Source: Blastocatellia bacterium
GTDB lineage: Bacteria > Acidobacteriota > Blastocatellia > Pyrinomonadales > Pyrinomonadaceae
Assembly: GCA_013697915.1 (NCBI GenBank)
Contig: JACCVY010000006.1
Span: forward strand, 1-64,000
Reading direction: 5' to 3'
Length of the DNA: 64,000 bases
The notes under the pieces were generated by a model. The model was not told the DNA's origin, ran no database searches, and saw nothing but the letters and a program-made list of their open reading frames with translations. Both the position numbers and the translations under genes were made by a program. Of the stretch, positions 30,907 through 63,955 are shown one piece after another. Each line of letters begins with the position of its first letter. Position 1 is the stretch's first letter.

Positions 30907-31692
30907 ATGTCCGCACACGCCGTCAATCAGAAGAAGAGCAATCGCGTCCCCCCGAAGACTGTCGAGATTCACATTCGCCGGCGCGCGAATCCCGACTCGC
31001 CTCAGTACTGGGAAGTCTTTGAGCTTCCTTATCGTCCGAACCTCAACATCATCTCGTGCTTGATGGAGATTCAGAAGAACCCGGTCACCAAAGAGGGCAA
31101 TCCAACCACGCCGCCTGTTTGGCAGATGAACTGTCTTGAGCAGGTTTGCGGAATTTGCACGATGGTCATCAATGGACGGGCGCGGCAATCCTGTTCTGCG
31201 CTGATCGACAATCTCGAACAACCGATCAAGCTTGAGCCCATGTCCAAGTTTCCCAACATTCGCGACCTGGTAGTCGATCGCTCGCAAATGTTTGATCATC
31301 TCAAGCAAGTTAATGCCTGGGTGGAACTCGACGGCACTCACGATCTCGGGCCGGGTCCGCGCATGGACCAGGAAGAAGTTCAAGAGCGTTATTCGTATTC
31401 ACGTTGCATGACGTGTGGCTGCTGTCTCGAAGCTTGTCCACAATATGAAGGCGACAATTATATTGGACCGCAGGCAATTGCCCAGGTTCGTCTATTCAAC
31501 ATGCATCCGAGCGGCAAGATGACCCGTGACGAGCGGCTGGAAGGAATCATGGGTGAAGACGGCATCACCAATTGCGGCAACGCACAAAACTGCGTCAAGG
31601 CTTGTCCCATGGGCATTCCGCTAACACGCGCGATTTACGAAGAGAACCGCGAGACGGTGGTGCACGGTTTGTTTGGCTGGCTAAAAAGTTAA
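30907..31692 (+). CDS. sdhB: Succinate dehydrogenase/fumarate reductase iron-sulfur subunit
   Basis: CLEQVCGICTMVINGRARQSCSA ... CMTCGCCLEACPQY ... CGNAQNCVKACPMGIPL. Confidence 0.96.
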   Translation: MSAHAVNQKKSNRVPPKTVEIHIRRRANPDSPQYWEVFELPYRPNLNIISCLMEIQKNPVTKEGNPTTPPVWQMNCLEQVCGICTMVINGRARQSCSALIDNLEQPIKLEPMSKFPNIRDLVVDRSQMFDHLKQVNAWVELDGTHDLGPGPRMDQEEVQERYSYSRCMTCGCCLEACPQYEGDNYIGPQAIAQVRLFNMHPSGKMTRDERLEGIMGEDGITNCGNAQNCVKACPMGIPLTRAIYEENRETVVHGLFGWLKS

Positions 31693-31737
31693 ATTCGACT
31701 AACATTTTATTGACTTCCTGCCGATAGGTGGACTATT

Positions 31738-32277
31738 GTGCCTCCACAATACAAGGTTTGTTCGCCGCGAACTTCCTGCCGATGGCCGCTCTTTTATCAC
31801 GGGGGTTACTTGTTCACTCAATTTCTTCGGCCATACCTCGCAGCTATAACTGTCATTTTATTAGCTCTATTAGTGTCTCCGTCTCTGCTTGCGCAGCGTC
31901 AAACGCCCGACAAAATATATACCCTTGCTGACGAAAAGAGGGCCCGGACGCCCGCGCAAAAGAAAATTGATTCACAATTGCTCTATGCAATTAAGCAACG
32001 GCGCGGCGAGACGCGAGGGGTACCCGAGTTGCGAATTGAACTCAAACTGGACGATCAAAAACGGGTTCTAGTGGACATCACCTCTTTGACGCCGTCAAAA
32101 GTGATTGCTCCAGTGAAGGAATTGGGTGGGTCAGTCATATCTGTTTCGCAACGATACCATACCCTCCGTGCGCTGTTGCCGCTCGATAAATTGGAACTTC
32201 TCGCTAGTGCCAAACAGGTTAGGTTCATTTCTCTCCCCGCTGAACCTGCCACACACGGTGCTGTGATAACGCACTAA
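31738..32277 (+). CDS. Secreted stand-alone propeptide/inhibitor-I9-like protein, homologous to N-terminal region of the downstream subtilase
   Basis: KRARTPAQKKIDSQLLYAIKQRRGE and RVLVDITS...VISVSQRYHTLRALLPLDKLELLASAKQVRFI match KRNRTPEQNKIDSQLLYAIKMHRGQ and RVVVDITG...ILVSTPNYNSIRVEVALDSLESIAASPDVNFI. Confidence 0.75.
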   Translation: MPPQYKVCSPRTSCRWPLFYHGGYLFTQFLRPYLAAITVILLALLVSPSLLAQRQTPDKIYTLADEKRARTPAQKKIDSQLLYAIKQRRGETRGVPELRIELKLDDQKRVLVDITSLTPSKVIAPVKELGGSVISVSQRYHTLRALLPLDKLELLASAKQVRFISLPAEPATHGAVITH

Positions 32278-32388
32278 AAGTACAGCAATGTTCTAGATTT
32301 TTACGGCATGCTCTTCGGCTTTGAGCACGGGCATGCTCATTACTGCTCGCCTGGTTACAAAAAAGAATTTTCCTAAGGAGCTCACAAC

Positions 32389-35300
32389 ATGAAGAAGTCT
32401 CATGCCAGACAGTCCCGATTTAGTCCCAACGGTAAACAGCGGCGCCTAAGCCCGAGGTGGCCGCTGGTGCTTTTCCTCCTAACTGCCGCCACCCTGGTGA
32501 CGCTAGCCACGGGTGTTTTTCCAAACGCGGCCTTTTATGTTTCCGCCGCGGGTGACGGCGATGCCATCAGCGCCAGCGCCGCTCAGCAGATTCAAGCTCT
32601 GGTTGAAGAGAAGAGAAATCGCACGCCCGAGCAGAACAAGATTGATTCGCAACTCCTTTACGCGATCAAAATGCACCGCGGTCAACCTATAGCCACCGGA
32701 GTTCAATCACTTTCCGTGAACGTTGCTACGAACGACCAGGGCCGTGTGGTAGTCGACATCACCGGCAACATAAATCAGTCACTCCTACAAACGCTCACTA
32801 GCTATGGGGCTAAAATTTTGGTTTCAACGCCAAACTACAACAGCATCCGCGTGGAAGTGGCGTTGGACAGTCTTGAATCCATAGCGGCCTCGCCTGATGT
32901 CAATTTCATACAGGCGAAACAAGAGGCGATGACGTCGCGGAGTAACGCCGCCGTTGTAAGTACTCCAGCGGCTGGAAGATCTATTCGAAGTGATTTCCCC
33001 ATGCGGGCTGCACGCGTACGTGAGCGACTCACAAAAGCGCTGGCCCGTTATTCTCAGAAGGATTCTCCAATCGATCCCGGAGCGGGTACGAATGTCGGTC
33101 AACGCCAATCCGAAGGCGATATCACTCACCGCGCCAACATAGCCCGATCCAGATATGGAATAGATGGCACAGGTGTCAAGATTGGCGTGCTTTCAAATGG
33201 CGTGGTCAGTTTGGCGCAGGCGCAATCCACGGGTGATTTGCCGCCTGATGTGACGGTTTTGCCTGGCCAGGCGGGGACCGGTGATGAAGGTACAGCAATG
33301 CTCGAAATTGTTCATGACCTCGCTCCCGGTTCCAAGCTTTACTTTGCCACCGCTTTTTCCAGCATTACTAATTTCGCCGATAACATTAAAAAACTTCGCG
33401 CGGCGGGATGCGACATCATCGTCGACGACGTCTTCTACTTCGCTGAATCGGTGTTCCAGGACGGACAGGCGCCGGCCATAATATCGCCGACGAACGGCGG
33501 GGTGGTGACACAGGCTGTCAACGACGTTACGGCCAGCGGCGGGATGTACTTCTCGTCAGCAGGTAACGAAGGCAACCTCAACGACGGCACGGCCGGAGTC
33601 TTCGAGGGGAACTTCACAAACGGAGGCACGCTCGCACTAATCGGGGGCGCAGGCGCCGGACCGGTCCACGACTTCGATTCCACCGCGGCTGTCGCGCAGT
33701 TCGACCGCATCACGCTTGGTTCGGCAAACCCCATCACGCTTTTCTGGTCTGACCCGCTTGGCGGGTCGGCCAACGACTATGACTTGTACATTCTGAACAG
33801 CGCCGGCACCGCGGTTGTCGCGGCCTCGACGGGCACCCAGGACGGTAACGACGACCCCATCGAAATCGTGGGGGGCGGCGCCAACGTCACCAACAACCGC
33901 ATCGTGGTGGCCAAGTTCAATGGCGCCGATCGCTTCCTGCACGTCAACACCTTCCGCGGTCGCCTGCTCTTCGCAACCTTCGGACAGACGCACGGCCACT
34001 CGGCAGCGGCCGAGGCTTACAGCGTGGCGGCGACGCCTTCGGTCGGCCCGTTCCCAATGCCCTTCACTGCGGCGAACGTGGTCGAGACGTTCGAATCCGA
34101 CGGCCCGCGCAAGCTCTACTTCCAGCCCGACGGGACGCCCTACACGCCCGGTAACTTCCTTGCGGCGGGCGGCATCACGCGCCAGAAGCCGGACATTACC
34201 GCGGCTGATGGTGGAGTGGTCTCTGGAGTGGGCGGCTTTTCCAGTCCGTTTTTCGGTACGTCTGCGGCTGCACCGCATGCCGGCGCAATTGCGGCCCTGG
34301 TCAAGTCAGCCAATCTGAGCCTGACGCCGGCTCAAATTCGAACGGCTCTGATCGCCTCGGCTATTGACATCGAAACGCCAGGCGTTGATCGCGACTCGGG
34401 CGCCGGAATCATCATGGCCGACACAGCCGTTGCCGCAGCCGGCGCGACTGCGGTGGACCTCGAACTCGGCACCGTTACAGTCACGGAAGCCGCCGGCAAT
34501 GGCAATGTTTTTGTTGAGCCTGGCGAGAAGGGCTCGATCACGGTTCAGTTAAGAAACAACAGCGCCGTAACTCTTACGAACGTGACCGCGACACTTACAA
34601 CTACCACTCCCGGCGTGACGATTGTGCCGCCGGGCTCATCAGCCTATCCGGACATCGCACCCGGGGGCGGCACTGCGAACAACACCACTCCGTTTCAGTT
34701 CATCATCGGCAGCAGCGTTCCCTGTCCGACGACGATCCATTTCACTCTAACGGTTAGCCTGACAGGCACCTCGAGCCCGAGAGTGTTCAACTTCGACTAC
34801 GGGGTCCAGCGGAAGGCGACCATTAGCACCACGCTCGACACTGTAGCACCGGCAAACGGCGAGGGCTTCACGTCGACGACTGGACTTCAAACCGGACGTT
34901 TGGTGCGCACCGGGAACACCTCCCTCTGCGGTATAACCAAACCTAATCCGGGGATCAATGGTGCGGATGCGGCCATCGCACACCGGTACGACGCCTACAG
35001 GTTCCAAAATCCCAGCACGTCGCCTATCTGCATTACGGTCACGCTAACCACGTCGAACGCGGACGATCTAAAACTTCAGTCAGTCGCTTATGCACCCACG
35101 TTCGATCCGGCCCACATAAGTGACAATTACATCGGGGACATTGCTGGGAATGACGGAAGAGATTCCCGGTTCTACTCATTCACCGTACCCGCGCTCACGA
35201 CTTTCGTAGTGGTCGTAAACGAAATCACCGGAGGGGCCGGCGGCGGCACAGCTTACACGCTGGTAGTTGATGGGTTGCCTTGTGTAACTCCACCGCCGGC

Positions 35301-36429
35301 GCTTGTCTCCTTGCAATTCGATCCTTCGGGAACTTCGGTTACCGAGGACAACACGTCCATTACCCTGACAGTCACGCGCACTGGTGATGCAAACTTCCCG
35401 GTCTCCGTCGACTACGCGACTGTCGATGGCAGCGCCTCTTCGCGTTCTGATTATGAGAAAGCGATCGGCACGCTGAAATTTGCGGTTGGCCAAACCAGTG
35501 CAACGATTACCCTGCTGCTCAACGAGGATTCCTTCGTTGAGGGCACGGAAACCTTCACTGTCTCGTTGAGCAATCCGCAAGGCGTTGAAACCTTCGTCGG
35601 CGGAGCGCCCACGGCCACCATTACCATCAATGACGACGTATCGGAACCTTCAACGAATGCCATCGATAACACCGATATTTTCGTCCGGCAGCATTATCAC
35701 GATTTCCTTAATCGTGAAGCCGACACGCCGGGTCTGGCGTTCTGGACCAACAACATCACAGTTTGTGGCGCCGATTCCGCCTGCATACAGGCGAAACGCA
35801 TAGATACAAGCGCGTCCTTCTTCCTGTCCATAGAATTTCAGGAGACTGGCTTCTTTGCCTACCGTTTCTACCAAGCGTCATATGGACGACGCATTGGAGG
35901 CACTGTGCCTCTAACTTTCGACGAGTTCATTCGGGACGCGGCGAAAGTTGGCCGAGACGTAATCATCGGACAAGCGGGAGCACTTGCACAGTTGGAGTCC
36001 AACAAACAGGCTTATTCTCTCGAATTCGTGACTCGTCCCGAATTTCTGGCCGCATACCCAGCCAGTCTGACTCCGAACCAATTCGTGGACGCTCTGAACT
36101 TAAACACGGGTGGGTCTCTCTCCACGGCCGAGAGGAATGCATTGATCGTTGAGCTGGCAGGCAACAACACGAACCAGGGCCGCGCAAGCGTCCTGCGACA
36201 GGTCGCAGATGATGCTGATTTCAAAGCGCTTGAAACTAATCGAGCGTTCGTGCTGATGGAGTACTTCGGATACCTGCGCAGGAATCCGAACGATGCGCCT
36301 GATGGCAATTTCAACGGGTTTAACTTCTGGTTGAATAAACTGAATGGCTTCAATGGAGATTTTAGGAAGGCAGACATGGCCAAGGCCTTTATCGTCTCCA
36401 CTGAATACAGGAGCCGGTTCGGCAATTAA
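32389..36429 (+). CDS. S8 (subtilisin-like) serine protease with Calx-beta domain and C-terminal DUF4214-like region
   Basis: GTGVKIGVLSNGVV (Asp region), FFGTSAAAPHAGAIAALV (catalytic Ser), VTEDNTSITLTVTRTGDANFPVSVDYATVDGSA (Calx-beta), FVRQHYHDFLNREADTPGLAFWTNNI (DUF4214). Confidence 0.9.
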   Translation: MKKSHARQSRFSPNGKQRRLSPRWPLVLFLLTAATLVTLATGVFPNAAFYVSAAGDGDAISASAAQQIQALVEEKRNRTPEQNKIDSQLLYAIKMHRGQPIATGVQSLSVNVATNDQGRVVVDITGNINQSLLQTLTSYGAKILVSTPNYNSIRVEVALDSLESIAASPDVNFIQAKQEAMTSRSNAAVVSTPAAGRSIRSDFPMRAARVRERLTKALARYSQKDSPIDPGAGTNVGQRQSEGDITHRANIARSRYGIDGTGVKIGVLSNGVVSLAQAQSTGDLPPDVTVLPGQAGTGDEGTAMLEIVHDLAPGSKLYFATAFSSITNFADNIKKLRAAGCDIIVDDVFYFAESVFQDGQAPAIISPTNGGVVTQAVNDVTASGGMYFSSAGNEGNLNDGTAGVFEGNFTNGGTLALIGGAGAGPVHDFDSTAAVAQFDRITLGSANPITLFWSDPLGGSANDYDLYILNSAGTAVVAASTGTQDGNDDPIEIVGGGANVTNNRIVVAKFNGADRFLHVNTFRGRLLFATFGQTHGHSAAAEAYSVAATPSVGPFPMPFTAANVVETFESDGPRKLYFQPDGTPYTPGNFLAAGGITRQKPDITAADGGVVSGVGGFSSPFFGTSAAAPHAGAIAALVKSANLSLTPAQIRTALIASAIDIETPGVDRDSGAGIIMADTAVAAAGATAVDLELGTVTVTEAAGNGNVFVEPGEKGSITVQLRNNSAVTLTNVTATLTTTTPGVTIVPPGSSAYPDIAPGGGTANNTTPFQFIIGSSVPCPTTIHFTLTVSLTGTSSPRVFNFDYGVQRKATISTTLDTVAPANGEGFTSTTGLQTGRLVRTGNTSLCGITKPNPGINGADAAIAHRYDAYRFQNPSTSPICITVTLTTSNADDLKLQSVAYAPTFDPAHISDNYIGDIAGNDGRDSRFYSFTVPALTTFVVVVNEITGGAGGGTAYTLVVDGLPCVTPPPALVSLQFDPSGTSVTEDNTSITLTVTRTGDANFPVSVDYATVDGSASSRSDYEKAIGTLKFAVGQTSATITLLLNEDSFVEGTETFTVSLSNPQGVETFVGGAPTATITINDDVSEPSTNAIDNTDIFVRQHYHDFLNREADTPGLAFWTNNITVCGADSACIQAKRIDTSASFFLSIEFQETGFFAYRFYQASYGRRIGGTVPLTFDEFIRDAAKVGRDVIIGQAGALAQLESNKQAYSLEFVTRPEFLAAYPASLTPNQFVDALNLNTGGSLSTAERNALIVELAGNNTNQGRASVLRQVADDADFKALETNRAFVLMEYFGYLRRNPNDAPDGNFNGFNFWLNKLNGFNGDFRKADMAKAFIVSTEYRSRFGN

Positions 36430-36466
36430 CTAACCTAACCAGACGGAGCGAGAGCCCCGCAAAACA

Positions 36467-36505
36467 AAACGGCGTAGCCTGGTTGGCTACGCCGTTTCAA
36501 TTGTA
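36467..36505. terminator. Bidirectional intrinsic terminator between subtilase and mdh
   Basis: aaacggcgtagcc-tggtt-ggctacgccgttt perfect 13-bp stem with A/T flanks between convergent genes. Confidence 0.85.
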
Positions 36506-36547
36506 AGGACCACGGTGGCTTGCGGCCGTGATCAAGCGAGCATAAGC

Positions 36548-37516
<969 letters not shown>

Positions 37517-47577: not shown

Positions 47578-48203
47578 GAAATAAGTCTTCCAGTGCAGCA
47601 TTGCGCCCCGCCAATCAAAAGATCGACGGGGCGCTTTGCCGTCCAACCGCGAACCCGGCGTGCGGCACCATGGCCTGCGGCGGACGATCTTGTTACGGCT
47701 TTCCCCAAGCGGGCAGCCCGCGCGGGGTGGCACATCGCTCGAAGCACATTCCTGGCTTAAGCGAAGATTCTTCCTTAGTCTAAAGTTCGAAAGCTCCTCA
47801 GCTTTCCCGATCACACGGCAAATCAATTCTCCCACCGGCCAATGAAGAGTCATCGCTAAGCCCAATCGGCAAATAAGAAGGTCGCTTCCGTCGTAGTTAC
47901 TAAAAGTGACGCGTTGCCTGTTGTGCTTGGCAAACAGCCAAGCAAAACGGTCGATTTCGTTGAGAGTTGGAGCTGGCACAGTCGTTGCTAAAGGGATGCT
48001 GCCAAGGTCATTGACCTTTCCGTATCAGGCGTTCGAGGGAGTGAATACTGTGAGCAATGAATTGGCAGGAGCAGATACGAGACGATTGGATTTGATGGAT
48101 GATAGTAACGGGCCGAAATAAATGTGACAGCAATTGCTTGATGCCCTATCGCACAGGTCACACCGACCAGTTCGCTCTAGGACGATTTAATGGGAGGAGA
48201 AGG

Positions 48204-49259
48204 ATGAAGAGGCGCCAGGCGAGCGAGATCTCGAACACCAGTTTACGCCAGCAGCAGTCACGTGGCTTCACGATGCTGCAATTAATAGTCACCATCGCCC
48301 TGGTGGTCATTATCACGACATTTGGCGCTGTGACCATCACGAAGGCTCGAGCCGGAATTCGGCTCACGAACTCGGCACGCTTGCTAGCGGGTTATATCGA
48401 AAAAGCACGCTCTGACGCCGTTCGACGGCACGGGTTTTCGACGGTCGAGGTGCTCAACACCGCGTCACCGCAAACTACCTATCGCATAACGATGGACTTC
48501 GATGGCAACGGAATTACAGAGAGCCGCGACTTCAGTCTGGAAGAAGGGGTTAGATTTATTACTCCCGGATCCATGACATTCGATTGGCGAGGACGAATTA
48601 TCAGGGAAGTTTCAATCGGAATTTCCTTAATAAGCGATGAAAACCGAAACAGCAACATCGCCGTAACATCTTCAGGCGACGTTACGCTTGACAGTATGGT
48701 TTTTCAGGATAAGGACATTCCCACAGTAGTGCTAAACAATGGATCTGTTGGGGGCGATGTTGTTCCCGATCCTTACCCAAGTTCGCAGCCGTCACCCAGC
48801 CCAACAAATTCGCCCAGTCCGACGCCTTCGCCCAACCCTTCGCAAAGCCCTACGCCCACGCCCAATCCTTCGACGTCGCCAACTCCTTCGCCAAGCCCGG
48901 GTGCTTCTCCCAGCCCTTCACCAACCCCCTCTCCATCGCCATCGAGTAGCCCCACTCCGTCGCCGACGCCAATCACAGGGCCATGCACAATTTCCATCGC
49001 ACCTAGTCCACTCGAGATCATTAGAAACGGCTCTGGCGGAGCTTACGTGACTATAGGGAATTTCTCGGGCAGCGTAACTATTACGGCAACGCCCGGCAAC
49101 TCGGGCGTGATACAGGTATCGCCCACTTCCAAAACTGTTACTGCGACAAGTAATGGTACCGCACAAGCGATTTTTGTCGTCACCGTGAAGAGTAAGAATG
49201 AGAGTGTTCTTTTCAATTCGCCCTGCGGATCTAAAACGCTGAACATCGTCGTAAAGTAA
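48204..49259 (+). CDS. FimT/GspH-like type IV pseudopilin with Pro/Ser/Thr-rich linker and C-terminal domain
   Basis: Prepilin-like [75 protein letters not shown] linker. Confidence 0.8.
48768..48980 (+). repeat. Low-complexity Pro-Ser-Thr coding repeat inside the pseudopilin gene
   Basis: cccagccc/tcgccc/acgccc-like hexameric repetition. Confidence 0.85.
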
Positions 49260-49265
49260 ATTCAA

Positions 49266-49763
49266 ATGAGACTGTCAGAACACGAGCAACACGATCCGCT
49301 AACAAGGAATCACGCGGAACTTTCTTCTGCCACTGGTTTCACATTACTGGAAACGTGTATTGCGCTTTTGATCATGCTAATCGTATCTCTTGGCGTCGCA
49401 TCTCTATTCGCGTTGTCCGTCGGCAACAATTCGGGCGCTGCTGACCGACAACTATCGATGGCGGTAGCACAGGACCGAATGGAACGACTCCGCAACGTGA
49501 TCTTCTCCGATCCCAGTCTGGATGTGACGCCAACGAGTGGCACGACAGAAACAATCACAAACGCCAGACGGAGTTATAGAGTAACAACAGTTATCACCGC
49601 TTCTAACACCGTGAACGGTCAGCCAACGGTGAAGACAATCAGCATTCGTGTAAACCCCCTGGGTGCGGGCCCGTCATGGTCAGGCATAACTTCGATATTT
49701 GGTTCGGTTACGGTTGTGTCGCAACGTTCCAGTCTGTTAACTGGACCCCACCGTGAACTTTAA
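49266..49763 (+). CDS. Type IV pilus prepilin-like protein (PilV-like)
   Basis: TGFTLLETCIALLIMLIVSLGVASLFALSVGNNSGAADRQLSMAVAQDRMERLRN. Confidence 0.8.
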   Translation: MRLSEHEQHDPLTRNHAELSSATGFTLLETCIALLIMLIVSLGVASLFALSVGNNSGAADRQLSMAVAQDRMERLRNVIFSDPSLDVTPTSGTTETITNARRSYRVTTVITASNTVNGQPTVKTISIRVNPLGAGPSWSGITSIFGSVTVVSQRSSLLTGPHREL

Positions 49764-50508
49764 TTCACTTCTTATGAAGTACAACGACATGGACAACCGA
49801 CACTCAGCGGCCAAAGAAGTCGCAGGCTTTTCGATCTTTGAGTTGCTCATCGCAATGACGATTACCTTGGTTCTTATGGGACTGGCGAGCGCGCTTATTG
49901 CTAGCGCCTTCTCAGTGCGCAGCCGCGAGGACCAGCATTCGGATGCGCTGGCTGATGTGCAGCGAGGGCTTAACATTATGTCACGCGAAATTGCCAGCTC
50001 TGGATTCAATATGTCTAACAACGGAATCGTCACAGCTGATTCCGACGGAAGGTCCATTCGCATTCGCGCCAATTTGAACAAGTACGATACCAGCGTAAGC
50101 GATCTCGCGAGATCTGGCATAAGCGTAGCGGGTGAAGACAAGGGCGAGGACATCAAATACTTTCTCAATGATGGCGGTACTACCAAGTACCTGGTTCGTT
50201 ACGATAGGTACGCTCAGCAGGTCCCGGACGATGAAAGAACAAGCGTTCTCGCCAATCGAATCGATTCACTTAAAATTCACTACTTCAATCAAAAAGTAAC
50301 CTATACCACTGTGGACTGCGACATCTCCAATCCGTCCCAAACTGAGTTAACAACGACAAATCTCGCTCAGGCCAAATACATTGTTGTCGGCGCCTGCGTC
50401 AGGCTGGAAGCTATCGGCACTCCGGGCTCGACCGTATACCAGCCGGCGCAAAACGTGCTTCTGGTTTCGGATGTGGCGTTGCGCCGGGCCAACCTGCGAA
50501 CATATTGA
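49753..50508 (+). CDS. Prepilin-type protein (PilW-like)
   Basis: VAGFSIFELLIAMTITLVLMGLASALIASAF; overlaps preceding gene; alternative ATG at 49774. Confidence 0.8.
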   Translation: MNFNSLLMKYNDMDNRHSAAKEVAGFSIFELLIAMTITLVLMGLASALIASAFSVRSREDQHSDALADVQRGLNIMSREIASSGFNMSNNGIVTADSDGRSIRIRANLNKYDTSVSDLARSGISVAGEDKGEDIKYFLNDGGTTKYLVRYDRYAQQVPDDERTSVLANRIDSLKIHYFNQKVTYTTVDCDISNPSQTELTTTNLAQAKYIVVGACVRLEAIGTPGSTVYQPAQNVLLVSDVALRRANLRTY

Positions 50509-51791
50509 GTAGTGGAGTAACACTAATGGAATATCAAAACCCGGCGGCAGACGAAAAGAAAAGCGAAAAGGGAGCCGCGCTCATAACTGTCTTGCTAATG
50601 AGCACCATGCTATTGGCAGTTGGGGGCGTGTTAATCATTAGCAGCACAACGACGGCGACGACCGCTATAGATTCGACGGCCGAAATGCAGGCTTACTATG
50701 CGGCTGAGTCAGGATTGCAGGCAGCGACCACCGCATTACGGGGCAATACTACCGCGAGGCCTCCTCTAGATCCCGCCACCACCAAGATCAACTTTGCCAA
50801 GGCTGTTGATGCTGCGACCTCAAACCTGGCTTCCGACACCTCTGGCTCGGCGAGGCTTTCTGCGTGGCTGCCTTATTCCTACGCGAATGGGGCTAGTGAT
50901 TGGCGTGTACCTCTCACTCCCGCCGATCCCACCGCCTACAATCCCCAGGCCGACATCGCTTACAGCGTCTCAATAGCCCGCCTTCCCGGGGACACGACGA
51001 CTGTTCCTATTCGCTTGCTTATCCGGTCCCGGGGCTACGGACCTAAGGGAGCCATTAAACAACTTGAGGCGGTAGTAATGGATCCCGCCTTTGATTTTCG
51101 TGTCCCCGCCTCGGTTCTGCTTAGGGGTGCAACCAACAATCTGCTCGCAAACTTTGTGTTGGGCCCGAGCAATGCAAAAACTCTAACCGGTCATGACAAT
51201 GCTCCCACTGGCACGATCGTGTCGGTCTTCGGGGTAACCAAAGAAGAGGATCAAATCCTTGTAGATTCGGCAATCTCCAGCGATGGCACCGTTGCTAGCC
51301 CGAAGACTCAGTTGTTAACTGCCTCAGACCTACCCTGGTGGCTGAATTCACCCGCCGATACGGTTTCATTACTTGACGAGCTTCAAAGCATGGCGGAGGA
51401 CAGATCACGATACTTCGCTGCCACAACAACGGATGTCGGAACTGCGACGAATCCGAAGTTTACCTTCATCAACGGCAATGCTTCGATTGGTCCCAATGCC
51501 GATGGCGCGGGCTTGCTTGTCGTGAAGGGCACGCTAACGCTGAACGGCAATTTCAATTTCTTTGGACTCATCCTGGTCCTTGGCAACGGCAACGTTCAAC
51601 GCACCGGTGGAGGTAGTGGCTTAGTCAAAGGTGCGATGGTGGTTGCCAATGTAACGTCCGGGCAACCCTTCCTGGCTCCGACCTACGACTCCACCGGTGG
51701 TGGCAATCTCAGTGTGATTTACGATTCAGACTGGGTGCGCAAGGCGCTGGATTCGGGTGGTCCGCGCATTGTCAATGTGCGCGAATTTTAG
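50505..51791 (+). CDS. PilX-like pilus assembly/minor pilin protein
   Basis: SEKGAALITVLLMSTMLLAVGGVLIISSTTTATTAIDSTAEMQAYYAAESGLQAATTALRG. Confidence 0.78.
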   Translation: MSSGVTLMEYQNPAADEKKSEKGAALITVLLMSTMLLAVGGVLIISSTTTATTAIDSTAEMQAYYAAESGLQAATTALRGNTTARPPLDPATTKINFAKAVDAATSNLASDTSGSARLSAWLPYSYANGASDWRVPLTPADPTAYNPQADIAYSVSIARLPGDTTTVPIRLLIRSRGYGPKGAIKQLEAVVMDPAFDFRVPASVLLRGATNNLLANFVLGPSNAKTLTGHDNAPTGTIVSVFGVTKEEDQILVDSAISSDGTVASPKTQLLTASDLPWWLNSPADTVSLLDELQSMAEDRSRYFAATTTDVGTATNPKFTFINGNASIGPNADGAGLLVVKGTLTLNGNFNFFGLILVLGNGNVQRTGGGSGLVKGAMVVANVTSGQPFLAPTYDSTGGGNLSVIYDSDWVRKALDSGGPRIVNVREF

Positions 51792-51838
51792 CGCCTGGGT
51801 AGTTACGTCTGGTGCGATACGCAGTTGCAAGTTCAATT

Positions 51839-52153
51839 ATGAAAGCCCCTCTCACAATTAAGCGATCAGATGGCTCGGCCGGTTTTAGTGTAATTGAGCT
51901 GCTCATCGTGATGAGCATCATCTCGGTGGTTAGCGGTTTCGCATTTATGCAGATCACACGCGCGCACCAGGTGATGGTCAGAGAAAATGCGGCGCGTGAG
52001 TTAGCTAGTAATCTGGAAAAGGCGCGGGTTGATTCTTTGCGACGCCACCCGACGGCTTCAGCGCAGATGGCCCAGGTGGTGCTCATCAATGCCACCTTCT
52101 ACTCGGTGGCTGATGCCGACGGGAACGGCGCGCTTGATGCTCCAAAAGTTTAA
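51839..52153 (+). pseudogene. Truncated FimT/GspH-like pseudopilin (duplicate)
   Basis: SAGFSVIELLIVMSIISVVSGFAFMQITRAHQVMVRENAARELASNLEKARVDSLRR..., ends abruptly at VADADGNGALDAPKV*. Confidence 0.65.
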
Positions 52154-52515
52154 TCGTTACTGCTGACTCAGCCGCCAACTCTATTCGCGTACGTGCCAAT
52201 CTAAACAATGACACGGATCTGTCCGACTCAGACGAGGACGTGCGCTTCGTTTTTCAAGGTGCAAATGGGGCAAGCGGGCCCATCGTTCGTGTTGATAACG
52301 CCGCCGGTTCGGTGGTCCTGGCGACAAATATCAATGGTCTGACGATTAGCTATCTGGATATGTCTGGTAACGCCGCCACTGCGGCTACAGCCGAGCGGGT
52401 AAACATTGATGTGCGCGTTGACTTGCCTGCCGAGCCGGGCCAACCAGCTTCAGTAGTGCGCCTCGTCTCCGATGTAGCTTTCAGAAATGGCCCAATCACA
52501 TTAAAGCAGTTCTAA
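52153..52515 (+). pseudogene. C-terminal remnant of a PilW-like protein lacking its prepilin N-terminus
   Basis: IVTADSAANSIRVRANLNNDTDLSDSDEDVRFVFQ... aligns with GIVTADSDGRSIRIRANLNKYDTSVSDLARSG of 49753-50508; ends LVSDVAFRNGPITLKQF vs LVSDVALRRANLRTY. Confidence 0.7.
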
Positions 52516-52531
52516 AGTAGCAGGTGATAAA

Positions 52532-53866
52532 ATGAATCCTATTGAACTTAGGGATCGAACAAGTCTGCGAAAGAGCAAGAGTCAGCGAGGGGCAGCCCTG
52601 ATCACGGTCTTGATGATATCTGCGCTGCTGCTAACTGCGGGCGGGGCCTTAATACTCACGACGTCACTTGCGGGAACAAACAGTGTAGACGCGACGGCGG
52701 AGATGCAAGCGTATTACGGCGCGGAAGCAGGGATTCAATCTACCCTCAATGTGCTTCGTGGAAACGTGATGCCGAATCCGTTATTCGTCTCAAATCCGAG
52801 CGGCTCTGTCGCGCCACAAAACAAGATCGACTTTACCAAGGCTCTGACATCAACGACGTCTAATCTGGCTTCTGACCCCACAACAGCCGGCTTTCCCAAG
52901 CGGCTTTCCCGCTGGCTTACATATAACTACACTCCGTCGGGAGTCGCTTATCCTGACCGGGTGGCAATCAGCGCCGGTTACAATCCCCTTAGCGGCATCG
53001 CATACAGTATTTCCGTAACTGATCCAGACAACACGCCCCTCGCCAGCCAGGTACCGCTTCGCTTGATCGTAACTTCCACCGGATATGGACCACGGGGCAC
53101 AAGGAAGACTCTATCAACGTTGATGACCGCAAACGGTCTGGACATCAGCGTCCCTGCAGCGCTCGTTCTGCGTGGGCACGATGATGCTGCAACAGACGCC
53201 ACCATAGATTTGGGAAACAGTAACGCCAAGACCTACTCAGGTGTGGACAACGCTGGCGTGGAAGCTACAAAACCATCGTTAGCGGTCAGCGGACACGATG
53301 TAACCACCGTCCAGGCCGCCTACGCCAGCAGACCTGGAACGGTCGCTGATCCCAAGTTCAAAGTTCTGGAGTTACCAAATGATCCGGCTCCTGCCGGAAC
53401 TACAACTGTACCAACGCCCTGGTTTCTCAAAACGGCAAATGACGCCCGCGCGTTCCTGGCCGAAGCGGAGACTTTCGCTACAAAGCACGGCGTCGTAGTC
53501 TCATCGCTCAACGGAGCAGCCGGGACAGCCGCAGCGCCACAATTCACCTTTGTAAACGGTGATTGTCACTTGGATAGTGGAGCCGGGCTACTGATCGTCC
53601 CCGGAACACTGACGACGAGTGGAAACCCGAGTTTTAGCGGATTAATTCTGGTGCTTGGTCAAGGAAGGGTGGTCAAGAGCGGCGGCGGGAATGGAGATAC
53701 TTTGGGCGCAATGATGATTGCAAGATTCGGCAGTACTGGCGGTTTTCTGAACCCAACATTTCAAGTAAGCGGAGGCGGGAACTCTACACTCCAATACGAT
53801 TCCACGGCCTACCGGAATTCGGTGGTCCTCTCCGGGCCTGTGGTGTTAGGGGTGGTTGAGAAATAA
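52532..53866 (+). CDS. PilX-like protein, paralogue of 50505-51791
   Basis: SQRGAALITVLMISALLLTAGGALILTTSLAGTNSVDATAEMQAYYGAEAGIQSTLNVLRG. Confidence 0.78.
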   Translation: MNPIELRDRTSLRKSKSQRGAALITVLMISALLLTAGGALILTTSLAGTNSVDATAEMQAYYGAEAGIQSTLNVLRGNVMPNPLFVSNPSGSVAPQNKIDFTKALTSTTSNLASDPTTAGFPKRLSRWLTYNYTPSGVAYPDRVAISAGYNPLSGIAYSISVTDPDNTPLASQVPLRLIVTSTGYGPRGTRKTLSTLMTANGLDISVPAALVLRGHDDAATDATIDLGNSNAKTYSGVDNAGVEATKPSLAVSGHDVTTVQAAYASRPGTVADPKFKVLELPNDPAPAGTTTVPTPWFLKTANDARAFLAEAETFATKHGVVVSSLNGAAGTAAAPQFTFVNGDCHLDSGAGLLIVPGTLTTSGNPSFSGLILVLGQGRVVKSGGGNGDTLGAMMIARFGSTGGFLNPTFQVSGGGNSTLQYDSTAYRNSVVLSGPVVLGVVEK

Positions 53867-54258: not shown

Positions 54259-55623
54259 ATGCCTGACATCCTTCTTGTTGAAGACAAAGACAGCCTGCGC
54301 CGCGTTTTGCGTTTGACTCTGGAAAACGCCGGCTACTCAGTCAACGAAGCCGTCGACGCGCGCGCTGCTCTCAACGAAATCGCGAGTGCTCCACATAAGT
54401 TGGTTCTAACCGACCTGCGCATGCCCAACGGTTCCGGTCTTGACGTGCTGCGCGCAGCGCGGGCAGCGGATAACGGCACGCCGGTAATCGTGATGACTGC
54501 ATTCGGCTCGATTGATGAAGCAGTTCAGGCGATGAAAGACGGCGCCCACGATTTTCTGCAAAAGCCGGTTGACTCAAATCATCTGCTTCTCATTGTCGAG
54601 CGTGCTCTTGAACAGGCGCGGCTAAGAACTGAAAACATTCTGTTGCGCGAAGAGTGGTCGCGCCGCTATGGCTTTCCGCGCATCATCGGCGAATCGGATG
54701 CAATCAAGCGCGCCGTTGCTGAAACCCAACGTGTGGCCCAGACTGAAGCCAACGTCTTATTTCTGGGTGAATCGGGTACCGGCAAAGAACTTTTCGCGCG
54801 AGCCGTCCATCATCTTTCTCCCCGCCGCCAAAAGCCTTTCGTTGCCATTAACTGTGCTGCCATTCCGGAAACGTTAATCGAAAACGAGTTGTTTGGACAC
54901 GAACGTGGAGCCTTCACGGGCGCCGGGGATCGGCGCCTGGGAAAGTTTGAGCTCGCTTCCGGTGGCACTGTTTTTCTCGACGAGATTGGCGAACTGCCGT
55001 TAGCGGTGCAGGGCAAACTGCTGCGGGTGATCGAGGAGAAAACGGTCGATCGCATCGGTGGACGCGCGCCTGTTCCGGTGGATGTTCGCGTGGTAGCGGC
55101 GACTAACAAAGACTTGAAGTCAGCGGTGGACCACGGTGAGTTTCGCGGCGATCTATTTTTCCGTTTGGCTGTTTTCCCGGTCGAGATTCCACCGCTGCGT
55201 GAACGTGACGACGATGTCCTCATGCTGGCAAAACATTTTGCCGCCCAACTCGGGAAAGAATTGCGCGGCCGCGAAGCGACTCTCAGCCTGGATTCCGCGG
55301 CCGCGTTGCGCACGCATCGCTGGCCCGGCAACGTTCGAGAGCTGGAAAACGCGATTGAGCGCGCTTGTATTCTTTCGGATACTTTGGTGTTGGAGCCAGT
55401 TGATCTTGGGCTAGTGCCCCGCAGCGGCGGCGATCAGACGCCTGCTTCCTTTGATCTCAGCGGCACGTTGTCTGAAGTGGCGCAGCGTGCTTTGCGTTTT
55501 GTCGAGCAACGCAAAATAGCGGGGGCGCTGAAAAACCACGGCGGCAACAAAAATGAAGCCGCTGAAGAGCTGGGCGTCAGCTACAAGACGTTGCTAACAA
55601 AAATAAAAGACTACAATCTCTGA
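54259..55623 (+). CDS. Sigma-54-dependent NtrC-family response regulator
   Basis: Receiver (DILLVEDKDSLRRVLR ... LTDLRMPNGSG), AAA+ (LFLGESGTGKELFARAVHHLS, GAFTGAGDRRLGKFELASGGTVFLDEIGELP), Fis-type HTH. Confidence 0.95.
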   Translation: MPDILLVEDKDSLRRVLRLTLENAGYSVNEAVDARAALNEIASAPHKLVLTDLRMPNGSGLDVLRAARAADNGTPVIVMTAFGSIDEAVQAMKDGAHDFLQKPVDSNHLLLIVERALEQARLRTENILLREEWSRRYGFPRIIGESDAIKRAVAETQRVAQTEANVLFLGESGTGKELFARAVHHLSPRRQKPFVAINCAAIPETLIENELFGHERGAFTGAGDRRLGKFELASGGTVFLDEIGELPLAVQGKLLRVIEEKTVDRIGGRAPVPVDVRVVAATNKDLKSAVDHGEFRGDLFFRLAVFPVEIPPLRERDDDVLMLAKHFAAQLGKELRGREATLSLDSAAALRTHRWPGNVRELENAIERACILSDTLVLEPVDLGLVPRSGGDQTPASFDLSGTLSEVAQRALRFVEQRKIAGALKNHGGNKNEAAEELGVSYKTLLTKIKDYNL

Positions 55624-55630
55624 ACCCGAG

Positions 55631-57358
55631 ATGCACGAATCTCCCAACCCCGTCGCTTCTCCTCCAGTTAAGGATGGTGAGGCCGACGAAAATCACGCTG
55701 AAGCAAGTTCGATCGCCGGCGAGACGATCGAACAGGTCGGCGACGCCGGCATTGACAGCCCCGTTGGCGAAACAGCGAAGCCAGAACGCAGCAGTGGCAA
55801 ATCCGCATTTCTTGTCGGCGCCGGAATCCTCATCAGTCGCATCGTTGGCTTAGTTCGACAACGCGTTTTCGCGCATTACTTTGGAACTTCAGCCGCGGGC
55901 GATGCCTTTAGCGCGGCGTTTCGCATTCCTAATTTCCTGCAGAACATTTTTGGGGAAGGCGCACTCTCGGCTTCCTTCATTCCGGTTTATGCCAAGCTGC
56001 TGGCCCACGACGATGAAGAGGAAGCCGCACAAGTCGCCAACGCGGTGCTGGGAATACTCGCGCTGGTGGTTTCGATAATCGTACTTGCCGGCGTTCTTAC
56101 CACGCCCTACATCATTTCTGCCATCGCTCCCGGATTCAAAGGCGAGACACGCGAGTTGACGATTCGCCTGGTGCGAATTCTCTTCCCGGGCGCTGGTCTA
56201 CTAGTGCTCTCCGCCTGGTGTCTCGGCGTTCTCAACAGCCATCATCGCTTTTTTATTTCCTATACTGCGCCGGTCGCGTGGAATCTGGCGATGATCGCGT
56301 CGCTGGTCATCTTCGGCCGCAAGGTGGGTCAGTTTCCTCTCGCCGAATACGTCGCCTGGGGTTCGGTTATTGGCAGCGCGTTGCAGTTTAGCGTGCAATT
56401 GCCCGTCGTGTTCCGGCTGGTGCAGCGTCTTCGTCCGGCATTTGATTTGGCGAGCGTTCATGTCAGGACTGTCGTTAGAAATTTTTTTCCTGTCTTCATG
56501 AGCCGTGGTGTGGTCCAGATCAGCGCTTTTGTCGATGCAGTGCTCGCCAGCTTTCTGCCGGAAGGTTCGGTCGTCGCGTTGACTTACGCGCAAAGTCTAT
56601 ACACGTTGCCGGTAAGTTTATTTGGGATGTCAGTATCGGCAGCCGAACTGCCGGCGATGTCGAGAGCAATCGGCAACACTGAGCAGGTCGCCGAAGTACT
56701 AAGAAAGCGGCTGGACAATGGACTGCAACGCATTGCCTTTTTCATTGTTCCGTCCTCGATGGCTTTCCTGGCGCTGGGCGATGTGATTGCCGCAGTGCTT
56801 TATCAGACCGGGCAGTTTAAGCACGACGCTTCAATTTTCGTCTGGGGCATTCTGGCCGGCTCGACAGTTGGCCTGCTCGCTTCCACTTTGGGTCGTCTCT
56901 ATTCCTCCACTTACTACGCTCTTCATGACACTCGTACGCCGTTGCGGTACGCGATCATTCGCGTCACGTTAACTACCTTGCTGGGTTACCTGTTCGCACT
57001 GCCGTTACCAATTGCCCTGGGCATCAATCCAAAATGGGGCGTGGCAGGATTGACCGCGTCCGCAGGCATTGCCGGCTGGATTGAGTTTGCGTTGCTGCGT
57101 CGCACCTTGAACCGGCGTATCGGCAAGACTGGGCTGGCGGCTGGCTATGTGATCAAGCTTTGGTTGGCTGCTTTTGTTGCAGCGGGCATTGGTTGGGGAC
57201 TTAAGTTGCTGGTTGGTAACCTTCACCCCATTCCGTTGGCGGGGATAGTTCTCGGCGGTTACGGAATTTCATACTTCGCAATAACCTTAGCGCTCGGTAT
57301 TTCCGCCTCGCAAGCTGTTGTCGGCAGGCTCCTGCGACTGGCCCGGCTTAGGAAATAG
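55631..57358 (+). CDS. murJ: Lipid II flippase MurJ (MviN)
   Basis: GILISRIVGLVRQRVFAHYFGTSAAGDAFSAAFRIPNFLQNIFGEGALSASFIPVYAKLL. Confidence 0.95.
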   Translation: MHESPNPVASPPVKDGEADENHAEASSIAGETIEQVGDAGIDSPVGETAKPERSSGKSAFLVGAGILISRIVGLVRQRVFAHYFGTSAAGDAFSAAFRIPNFLQNIFGEGALSASFIPVYAKLLAHDDEEEAAQVANAVLGILALVVSIIVLAGVLTTPYIISAIAPGFKGETRELTIRLVRILFPGAGLLVLSAWCLGVLNSHHRFFISYTAPVAWNLAMIASLVIFGRKVGQFPLAEYVAWGSVIGSALQFSVQLPVVFRLVQRLRPAFDLASVHVRTVVRNFFPVFMSRGVVQISAFVDAVLASFLPEGSVVALTYAQSLYTLPVSLFGMSVSAAELPAMSRAIGNTEQVAEVLRKRLDNGLQRIAFFIVPSSMAFLALGDVIAAVLYQTGQFKHDASIFVWGILAGSTVGLLASTLGRLYSSTYYALHDTRTPLRYAIIRVTLTTLLGYLFALPLPIALGINPKWGVAGLTASAGIAGWIEFALLRRTLNRRIGKTGLAAGYVIKLWLAAFVAAGIGWGLKLLVGNLHPIPLAGIVLGGYGISYFAITLALGISASQAVVGRLLRLARLRK

Positions 57359-57514: not shown

Positions 57515-58286
57515 ATGAACAAGCTTTTCACGAAGAGCATTTTTGCTCCTGGCGCGCTATTAACTCTTTCGCTGGCGGGCACCAGTGCGCGAGCCGACAA
57601 CTTTCTGATTGTTCCCGTGGGGCCAACAATCGTGCAACCAGCCGGGCTGGGAACAGTTAATACTGTTCTGGTTCTGCAGACCAAGGGTTCCGCGACATCT
57701 GGGTATGGCTCGGTCGCTTATGATCCAAACAATACCCTGTCGAACCGCAAAGGCGATCTCGTCAGCGGCAACCAAACCGTAGCCGGCGCCAACAATCAAA
57801 CATATTCAGTCAACTGATTTGGGCATTACCAACGGGAATCTCTGCATAAACATGAACATCAACGACCCGAATAAGGGCGGTAGCAATACCGGACCCGTCG
57901 GGCCAATCGTGCTCAACACGCTTATCCTGACTGCATACGACCAATCTGGCACGGCTGTTTTCAGCGCGCATCTCGCTGATGCCCTGACCCTCCGCGAAGC
58001 TACCTTGAACGGTACCGGCACCGGCAAATCGGATTTCACTTTCGCGCTTAACGCTGATGCTGCTGCAGCCTTGGCGGCGGCGATTGCAACCAACCCAAAC
58101 CTGAGATTGGGGCTGGCGGCGAGTGTCTCCGATGCATCAGGCGGCCACGAAAGCTTCTTTTTCTGCAAGGGTTGCGATCCTGGTCGAGAAGTTCCCGAGC
58201 CGGCCACCATGTTGTTGCTCGGCACCGGTCTCGCAGGTACGGTGGGCGCAATTCGCAGACGACGCAACGCAGCCAAACCTGAATAA
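57515..58286 (+). pseudogene. PEP-CTERM-sorted secreted protein, split by a +1 frameshift near 57810
   Basis: ORF 57515-57817 (signal peptide) ends ...QTYSVN*; downstream frame continues TDLGITNGNLCINMNIND ... VPEPATMLLLGTGLAGTVGAIRRRRNAAKPE. Confidence 0.8.
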
Positions 58287-61345: not shown

Positions 61346-63955
61346 TCACTTCTGCTTCACGAAAGTTTCCAATTTTAGGTCCGTCCCATTTGTCGTGAAC
61401 GTGATGGTACCGCTGTTGCCTGTTCTCAACACTTCCGCGCCCGCCTGCTCCCATCGTTTGACGACATCCGGACTGGGATGACCAAACATTGAGGTTTGCC
61501 CCACTGAGATCACTGCGTAACGGGGCTGGGCGGCAGCAATGAATCTCGGGGTTGATGAGGTCTTGCTGCCATGATGTGCGACCTTGACGACGTCCGCGCG
61601 GATTTCCCCTAACGGCGCCAGGGCTTCTTCGGCGCGCGCCTCGATATCTCCGGTTAGTAAAAATGATCGCCGGCCACAGATTATGCGTAGAACGATCGAG
61701 TCATTGTTTTGCGACGGCAGATCATTACTCTGCACCGGCGGAGGCCAAAGAACATTTATGCTCACGTCGCCAAAACGTAACTGGTCGCCACCGGCGATTG
61801 TCTGGATGGGAATTCGTTGGGCCAGCGCAGTCGCTGAAAAACGTGCGAACTCTGGATCGTTTTTTGGCGTCCGTGCCACTAGCGCAGCGCGCACACGGAA
61901 ATTTCGGGAGATGTCATTCAAGCCATCAATGTGATCTGCGTCGGCGTGCGTTGCCAAAATGTAATCCACATGATCGAGACCGCGTTGCCAGAGAAACTCT
62001 GAAACAACTGCTTCACCGATGCTGCGCGTGTCGCGCTCAAAACTCTCTTCGCCGTCCGAGTCTGCATCTCTCTGAAAAGGACCAGGTCGGCCGCCGCCAT
62101 CAACCAGCAGGGTGGCGCCGTCCGGAAACGTGACTAGTGCTGAATCACCCTGGCCCACATCGAGAAAATCAACATGAAGATTTCCGTCAGGCCGCGGCGC
62201 ACTCCATGGATGAAAGACAACTACAGCAACCGCCAACAGCTGAGCGATAAAAGCAGGAGACAAGTGCAATCGAACAGATCGCTTCTTAGAACTTGAAAGG
62301 CGTAGGGGTTGCCAGCGCCAGAGGAGGTGAACCAAACCAACCAGTGGCAAGTAATACAAAGCGTAAATCATCGCGGCCCAGCCGCTGTATTCGGGCAAAC
62401 GAATTGAGGCAATGCCGGCTCTCGCGAACGGATCGACGCTGTGAACGGTTAACCAATTCAGGCCATTTGTTAAGCTGATAAATGGACCAGCAAGGAGCGC
62501 GCTGACTTGCGCCACCAGCAAAGCAACCACGGCAGCAATTGCCATCGCCGCCATCATCAAGCTCACACCGATATTCAATATCAATGAAGCAAATGACAGG
62601 CGATGAAAATAAACAATGAGCAGCGGCAGCAAGACAATCTGCACGCTGGCCGAGACAACAATCGTCGAAAACGCGTAACGCAATGGCCGTTGCAAATGCA
62701 ATCGTTCCAGAACTTTTGCTGCCGACGTTTTAAGAAGTTTATAGCTGTAGTTGTTTTGCTCCAGTTCAGCCCGCCATTGCAGTTCACTCCAAAAAACACT
62801 TTCGCACAAACTTCTCAACCACAGCGCGCATGACGGCGGATAAGGAGTCTCGCGGGTTGGTCGCCAAGCGCCAATGGCCGAGAGTTTTTGCAGAAGCGGC
62901 CACGACAACAAAACAATTGCCGCCACTGACGCGAACGTTAACTGAAAAGAGGGATCGAGCAGATCGCTCGGCCGCCAGGCGAGCAGCGCCAGCGCCGAGC
63001 CGCCTAGCGCGTTCAATGAAGATGCGTGCCGCGAAACTAACGGCGCGAGCACGATGACCGTAAACATCAACGCCGCGCGCACGACAGACGCTTCAGCGCC
63101 GACCGCTAGCGCATATGACCACAAGACAGCCGCCGACAAAGCGAACTGCACTGCGCGATTCCGGGTGAAGCGTCTCGCAATCAGGAAAACGATCCCGCCC
63201 AAGAAAGTTATGTGCAGTCCACTGATCACGAGTACGTGGAACGTGCCGCCCTCGCGGAAGCGCGCGGAAGTTGATTGCGACAGGAAATAACGGTTGCCCA
63301 GTATGGCCGCATCCAGCACGCCCGCGGTTTCTTTTGAAAAGTGAGAATCGATTGCGAGTTGAACTTTGCGGCGCCATTCGTACAGCCAAGCTAAAGGCAG
63401 AAACACCCGTTCATTCTCCTGGCGCTCGATCAAAAGCGGACTCTTCACCAGAGCCGTTGCGTCGTAGCCCTGTCGATCCAAATATTCGGTGAACGAGGCC
63501 ACGCCGGGATTGCGAAAGGTATCGGCGCGCTCCAACCTCGTCATCAAGCGCAACGACGCTCCATAGTGCAGGTCGAGTGCGGCGAAATTCTGTTCACTGT
63601 TTTTTTGCGCCACGCGCGCCGATAACATGACCACGCCTGACGCTTGCGTCTCGGTGTTTCTCACTCGAAGTCGTCTTACTTTTAGACGAAGGAACAAACG
63701 TTCCGGCGCCAGTTCCGGCTCTTGTTCCAACACTCCCGTTAATTCAACCGGCTCGCCAACCTTGATCACTCCTTCTTCTAACAAGCGCCGAATTTGATGA
63801 GGAGGGATGCTGCTTTGCTCAACGATTGCGAAGGCCGAACCGAGGAACGCGGTGACGAATAATACAAGCGTGGTCGCCAATCGCAGTTTGTGTTTAAGCA
63901 AAGCCGCAAGCGCACCTGAGACCAACGCGCCGCAGAAGATAAGCAACCAAACCAA
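61346..63955 (-). CDS. comEC: ComEC/Rec2-family DNA internalization competence protein
   Basis: Competence TM domain (VISGLHITFLGGIVFLIARRF) and MBL domain (LDVGQGDSALVTFPDGATLLVDGGG, ATHADADHIDGL). Confidence 0.93.
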   Translation of the reverse strand: MVWLLIFCGALVSGALAALLKHKLRLATTLVLFVTAFLGSAFAIVEQSSIPPHQIRRLLEEGVIKVGEPVELTGVLEQEPELAPERLFLRLKVRRLRVRNTETQASGVVMLSARVAQKNSEQNFAALDLHYGASLRLMTRLERADTFRNPGVASFTEYLDRQGYDATALVKSPLLIERQENERVFLPLAWLYEWRRKVQLAIDSHFSKETAGVLDAAILGNRYFLSQSTSARFREGGTFHVLVISGLHITFLGGIVFLIARRFTRNRAVQFALSAAVLWSYALAVGAEASVVRAALMFTVIVLAPLVSRHASSLNALGGSALALLAWRPSDLLDPSFQLTFASVAAIVLLSWPLLQKLSAIGAWRPTRETPYPPSCALWLRSLCESVFWSELQWRAELEQNNYSYKLLKTSAAKVLERLHLQRPLRYAFSTIVVSASVQIVLLPLLIVYFHRLSFASLILNIGVSLMMAAMAIAAVVALLVAQVSALLAGPFISLTNGLNWLTVHSVDPFARAGIASIRLPEYSGWAAMIYALYYLPLVGLVHLLWRWQPLRLSSSKKRSVRLHLSPAFIAQLLAVAVVVFHPWSAPRPDGNLHVDFLDVGQGDSALVTFPDGATLLVDGGGRPGPFQRDADSDGEESFERDTRSIGEAVVSEFLWQRGLDHVDYILATHADADHIDGLNDISRNFRVRAALVARTPKNDPEFARFSATALAQRIPIQTIAGGDQLRFGDVSINVLWPPPVQSNDLPSQNNDSIVLRIICGRRSFLLTGDIEARAEEALAPLGEIRADVVKVAHHGSKTSSTPRFIAAAQPRYAVISVGQTSMFGHPSPDVVKRWEQAGAEVLRTGNSGTITFTTNGTDLKLETFVKQK

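Follow-up and report, generated by a model that had tools for sequence, protein, structure and literature searches.

Why would a bacterium keep a complete set of minor pilin genes and, directly behind it, the beginning and the end of a second one? We found this arrangement in a window of 64 kb (the whole stretch of DNA analyzed here) from a single metagenome-assembled genome (MAG; G000; 4.5 Mb, 271 contigs, 97% complete), which was compared with relatives in the Pyrinomonadaceae (Acidobacteriota). Very probably the locus holds two old tandem cassettes, the second of which was broken in the window lineage by one recent deletion of ~1,020 bp. Most of this finding is ordinary: a paralogous pilin cassette broken by a deletion, that is, ordinary gene decay.

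Two pilin cassettes and a deletion junction

All features described here lie on the forward strand. Cassette 1 comprises a FimT1/GspH-like prepilin that has a linker rich in Pro, Ser, and Thr and is extended by a C-terminal domain (48204..49259), a PilV1/GspI-like prepilin (49266..49763; TIGR02523 PilV E = 2.2e-6 and gspI E = 5.6e-6, neither of which reaches its curated cut-off), a PilW1/GspJ-like prepilin (49753..50508, starting at GTG 49753 or, internally, at ATG 49774), and PilX1, a GspK/ComZ-like large tip pilin (50505..51791; GspK E = 9e-5, below the cut-off). The NCBIfam matches to GspH, PilV, GspI, and GspK all stay under the equivalog cut-offs. The class III signal/N-methylation motif scores above the Pfam cut-off in the truncated FimT2 of the second cassette (E = 5.2e-6) and is below the cut-off or weak in PilW1, PilV1, and FimT1. 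Judged by these signals and by the order H-I-J-K (FimU/FimT-PilV-PilW-PilX), found in cassette 1 and in the second cassette of the relative G004, each cassette is a candidate GspH-I-J-K-type priming/tip complex (compare the review PMC7248040). The genome has several ATPase genes of the GspE/PilB/PilT type; this contig carries two of these, ~30 kb farther downstream. There is no PilY1 gene within the locus, and a profile search with PF05567 (PilY1) gave no match in the genome but none in control genomes either.

To the right, the cassettes are followed by genes for an NtrC-type response regulator (54259..55623; 95% identity to G004), which adjoins the cassette in many family members as a conserved right-hand neighbor, and for the MurJ flippase (55631..57358), a conserved flank. 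A PEP-CTERM gene 3.6 kb downstream (57515-58286) is split by a 1-nt insertion compared with its intact G004 orthologue (257 aa) and is either a pseudogene or a sequence error.

In the second cassette, FimT2 (51839..52153) is cut short. Its open reading frame starts at GTG 51812 or ATG 51839 (104 aa from the ATG), stops at TAA 52151-52153, and matches the first 102 of the 190 residues of G004 FimT2 with 83% amino acid identity. The remnant keeps the signal, the alpha helix, and the first strands and ends after the DADGNGALDAPKV loop; the C-terminal ~85 aa are gone. The loop itself (DADGNGALD, 52105-52135, just ahead of the truncation) resembles a calcium-binding loop, and FimT relatives share a DxDGDGxLD version of it. 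The C-terminal remnant of PilW2 (52144..52515) lies in the -1 frame relative to FimT2, reads IVTADSAANSIRVRANLNND... and is still open up to 52515, with 83% identity over 121 aa to residues 81-202 of the intact G004 PilW2. It has no start codon at its head and no signal peptide or N-methylation motif, and the earliest usable start in its frame (GTG 52240) lies inside the domain, so that no prepilin signal is made; a pilin product is not expected.

The original prediction had placed a full set upstream (48204-51791), a FimT-like prepilin ending at 52153 with a PilW-like C-half next to it in another frame, and a downstream PilX-like paralogue. All of these are present, with the right coordinates. 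The cross-alignments that it called for gave significant similarity between the PilW2 remnant (52144-52515) and the middle and C-terminus of PilW1 (35% identity over 154 columns, E = 1e-13) and between PilX1 and PilX2 (50505-51791 and 52532-53866; 40% over 436 columns, E = 3e-88). Together with FimT1 and FimT2 (30% over 93 aa, E = 1e-15), these similarities between the cassettes are far above chance.

The nearest relative in the MurJ tree, our species-tree marker, is the congeneric G004 (MurJ 95% identical), which has an intact second cassette at the same locus (FimT2, 190 aa; PilV2, 164 aa; PilW2, 202 aa; PilX2, 456 aa). In alignment with it, FimT2 of the window is matched to ...DAPK-V, and the next matched position is codon ~81 of PilW2. 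The junction falls at 52149..52152, the FimT side reaching to 52149 (...CCAAAAGT) and the PilW side beginning at 52152 (AATCGTT...), with two bases, TT, between them that are assigned to neither side. The ~1,020 bp missing from the window correspond to ~104150-105169 of G004 contig C15 and comprise the C-half of FimT2, the whole of PilV2, and the N-half of PilW2. A complete second cassette is also present in G026 and probably in G029, where it is split over two contigs; hence, the complete state is ancestral and the state in the window is a deletion. Relatives have this locus with an intact orthologue, and the frame is broken in the window, as in a pseudogene formed by deletion. The predicted loss of the FimT C-terminus, PilV, and the PilW N-terminus is thus directly supported by the intact cassette of G004, and the alternative offered with it, a compact diversified cassette that exchanges tips, is unsupported: the fragments of FimT2 and PilW2 are plain truncation products.

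Microhomology at the junction is essentially nil, with at most 2 bases possibly shared, which fits end joining and speaks against a k-mer-driven misjoin. This bears on the most serious alternative, that an intact cassette 2 exists and that the assembler or the binning joined two nonadjacent pieces. The window does come from one MAG of 271 contigs, and the frameshifted PEP-CTERM gene nearby can be read as patchy sequence quality. However, a short-read misjoin requires a common k-mer, a DNA search of the G000 genome gave no further match to this stretch, neither an intact cassette 2 elsewhere nor a leftover of the missing 1 kb, and the remaining genes of the collinear 64 kb are intact. The relative G006 moreover provides a natural case of cassette-2 decay. 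We therefore regard an assembly artefact as improbable.

Age of the deletion and origin of the cassettes

The deletion is recent. The FimT2 and PilW2 fragments have an omega of 0.12-0.14 in comparison with G004, and 4-fold sites have diverged by 0.45 in them and by 0.36 in the flanking genes, a difference without significance (p = 0.09). Outgroup-polarised amino acid changes on the window and G004 branches number 5 versus 7 in FimT2, 3 versus 8 in PilW2, and 26 versus 41 in PilX2; there is no excess on the window branch in any of them, and the fragments evolved no faster than the intact copies. Hence, most of the evolution of the fragments predates their loss of function. A rough estimate, which hinges on the assumed baseline, puts the deletion within the last 3-17% of the window branch.

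Recency also accounts for the PilW2 frame still being open, which might instead suggest a functional chimera, a hybrid minor pilin in which a -1 frameshift at CCA AAA GTT TAA joins FimT2 (104 aa) to the C-half of PilW2 (~122 aa). The two frames are indeed -1 apart, and the Lys codon in the P site can re-pair on A_AAA one codon ahead of the stop. However, an X_XXY_YYZ heptamer is absent at the junction, the downstream RNA has less structure than its shuffled versions (z = +1.08), and no relative has a FimT2-PilW2 fusion. Lacking both slippery heptamer and RNA structure, a programmed frameshift was rejected, and we consider a hybrid pilin very unlikely.

Cassette 2 has decayed in a neighboring lineage as well. 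In the next relative, G006, only scraps of it are found between PilX1 and NtrC, namely the C-terminus of FimT2 (E 2e-9) and a broken C-terminus of PilX2 (E 1e-22). Because G006 keeps the FimT2 C-terminus that the window lost, its decay is independent of that in the window; it is also more advanced. The same interval in G006 (L050:5834-7638) contains an extra TPR-protein gene besides the remnants. In G014, and likewise in a number of genomes from a different genus, PilX is followed by a solo FimT2-type gene, which indicates that partial second cassettes are common. Examples straight after PilX, with the other genes of a second cassette absent, are L041:8417-8959 and L069:6473-6985, and others occur in G137 and G139.

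In the PilX, PilW, and FimT trees, the cassette-2 genes of the window group with the cassette-2 genes of other genera, and AU tests rejected trees that join the two window copies as sisters (PilX, p = 3.9e-7; PilW, 1.7e-5; FimT, 4e-90). In these trees the two cassettes behave as old paralogues common to several genera. The tandem duplication invoked by the original prediction is therefore compatible with the data as an old, family-level event and not as a recent one. A recent duplication of cassette 1 followed by the deletion, the literal order of events first proposed, has in its favor the identical gene order and the homologous products, but with just 30-40% identity between the cassettes, orthologues of copy 2 in other genera, and the sister grouping rejected in three trees, it was ruled out as scarcely credible.

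The surviving PilX2 and a possible exchange of cassette 1

PilX2 (52532..53866) is an intact GspK/ComZ-like tip pilin of 444 aa with 71% identity to PilX2 of G004. It is open and conserved, and we dropped the idea that it is decaying as well, given an omega of 0.094 and no acceleration on the window branch. The description of the second set as a decaying duplicate thus holds for FimT2 and PilW2 and not for the entire copy. The 4-fold divergence of PilX2 from G004 (0.67, versus 0.44 for the PilW2 fragment and 0.32 for NtrC) increases towards the 3' end; this synonymous excess is possibly due to partial recombination and is not fully explained. No carriage of PilX2 on plasmids was found.

The AlphaFold2 model of PilX2 (pLDDT 76.5) had as its best Foldseek match ComZ of Thermus (6qvi; E = 1.1e-4, probability 0.90, TM-score 0.19), followed by a run of ice-binding-protein solenoids. 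ComZ of Thermus thermophilus is a GspK-like pilin with a beta-solenoid that resembles ice-binding proteins (PMC6561018, PDB 6qvi), and the matches ranking after it for the PilX2 model are ice-binding proteins of that kind. The two differ in that the overall TM-score is low, and a sequence search with PilX against solved structures gave no match. From its model, PilX2 looks like a large GspK-like tip pilin with a beta-solenoid and is a putative member of the ComZ type. Many PilX proteins of the family (L045, L055, and other loci) are longer, with 560-670 aa and an extra segment near residue 160 between the conserved N- and C-terminal parts. A ComEC-like gene (61346-63955; Competence domain, E 2e-41, plus a metallo-beta-lactamase domain) lies ~7.5 kb from the pilin cassettes. 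A role in DNA uptake is possible on circumstantial grounds.

The intact cassette 1 has a history of its own. Window and G004 align collinearly, with 82-90% DNA identity, outside three stretches: 31692-36570, 47690..51837, and the diverged and deleted cassette 2 (74-79%). The first of these stretches, which is not at this place in G004, encodes a 1346-aa subtilase/Calx-beta/DUF4214 protein (32389-36429). The second, cassette 1 with its upstream region, has no DNA orthology to the G004 locus: collinearity ends at 47689 and resumes at 51838. Cassette 1 proteins of the two genomes are 41-54% identical, and 4-fold divergence is 0.70, compared with 0.36 in the handful of flanking genes that serve as the baseline (Fisher p = 3e-23). 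As synonymous sites are saturated, fast protein evolution alone is insufficient, and either replacement or differential retention suffices. AU tests of whether the cassette-1 copies of the window and G004 are non-sisters were not significant (p = 0.16, 0.39, 0.30); the case for non-orthology therefore comes from the saturation at synonymous sites, from the promoter no longer aligning, and from a DNA search. That search, across 119 family genomes, identified no donor of cassette 1 and returned only short stretches, mostly at 66-87% identity, with G004 matched via its cassette 2 and not its cassette 1.

The same slot in the sister pair G001/G009 shows a similar pattern, with a divergence of 0.33-0.36 in the flanks and 0.65-0.71 in the cassette (p = 1e-16). 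Here the cassettes as sisters were rejected in PilX and PilW (p < 1e-5), and the G001 cassette type was found in G011 and G003 at another locus. In the control pair G011/G015 the cassette behaves vertically (p = 0.07). We give an even chance to the hypothesis that the interval from the DacB-like gene to NtrC-MurJ is a slot that swaps whole four-gene tip cassettes with their promoter by recombination, with surplus or displaced ones decaying alongside. Such DNA would possibly have been taken up through the same pilus. Tip exchange is better supported for the intact cassette 1 than for the broken cassette 2.

A model of the locus and comparison with known systems

We propose that the locus started with two tandem minor-pilin cassettes of old, separate lineages, each of which would code for a four-part pilus-tip complex of FimT/GspH-, PilV/GspI-, PilW/GspJ-, and PilX/GspK-like subunits. 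In the window lineage, one recent deletion of the end-joining type would then have cut the C-half of FimT2, PilV2, and the N-half of PilW2. FimT2 and PilW2 would now be pseudogenes, and cassette 2 could presumably no longer supply all the subunits of its tip. PilX2 would be either a surplus cap that could associate with FimT1-PilV1-PilW1 or next in line for decay. The functional tip would come from cassette 1 and probably serve a type IV pilus in adhesion, motility, or the capture of DNA.

A search of the available literature for pili in the Pyrinomonadaceae found no paper. In these poorly studied soil bacteria, tip cassettes stand next to each other in tandem, have decayed in sister species by independent events, and are seemingly replaced as units between conserved neighbors. 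Cassette 2 offers a clean and datable breakdown of a redundant minor-pilin cassette, with one deletion and a surviving tip subunit. The pattern in the family also provides a natural setting for asking whether tip complexes work as exchangeable cognate sets and whether a PilX/ComZ-like cap is functional on the base of a different set.

Several FimU-PilV-PilW-PilX/PilY1 clusters serve one pilus machine in Myxococcus xanthus, where cluster 1 or 3 alone is enough for piliation, so that the loss of one is tolerable (PMC7541494). Each Myxococcus cluster has a PilY1, whereas none was seen at the window locus, which further differs in its tandem cassettes, one broken by a deletion, and in a PilX predicted to contain a solenoid. 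Xylella fastidiosa has duplicated fimT/pilEVWX/pilY1 sets with divergent and often opposite roles, with FimT3 as a DNA receptor (PMC9956873). It resembles the window in having paralogous minor-pilin sets, but there they lie in separate regions. Pseudomonas aeruginosa strains PA14 and PAO1 have divergent minor pilin sets that are 61-75% similar (PMC5979040); in the window, by comparison, the cassette is 41-54% identical to that of its relative between flanks of 87-95%, with a paralogous cassette alongside.
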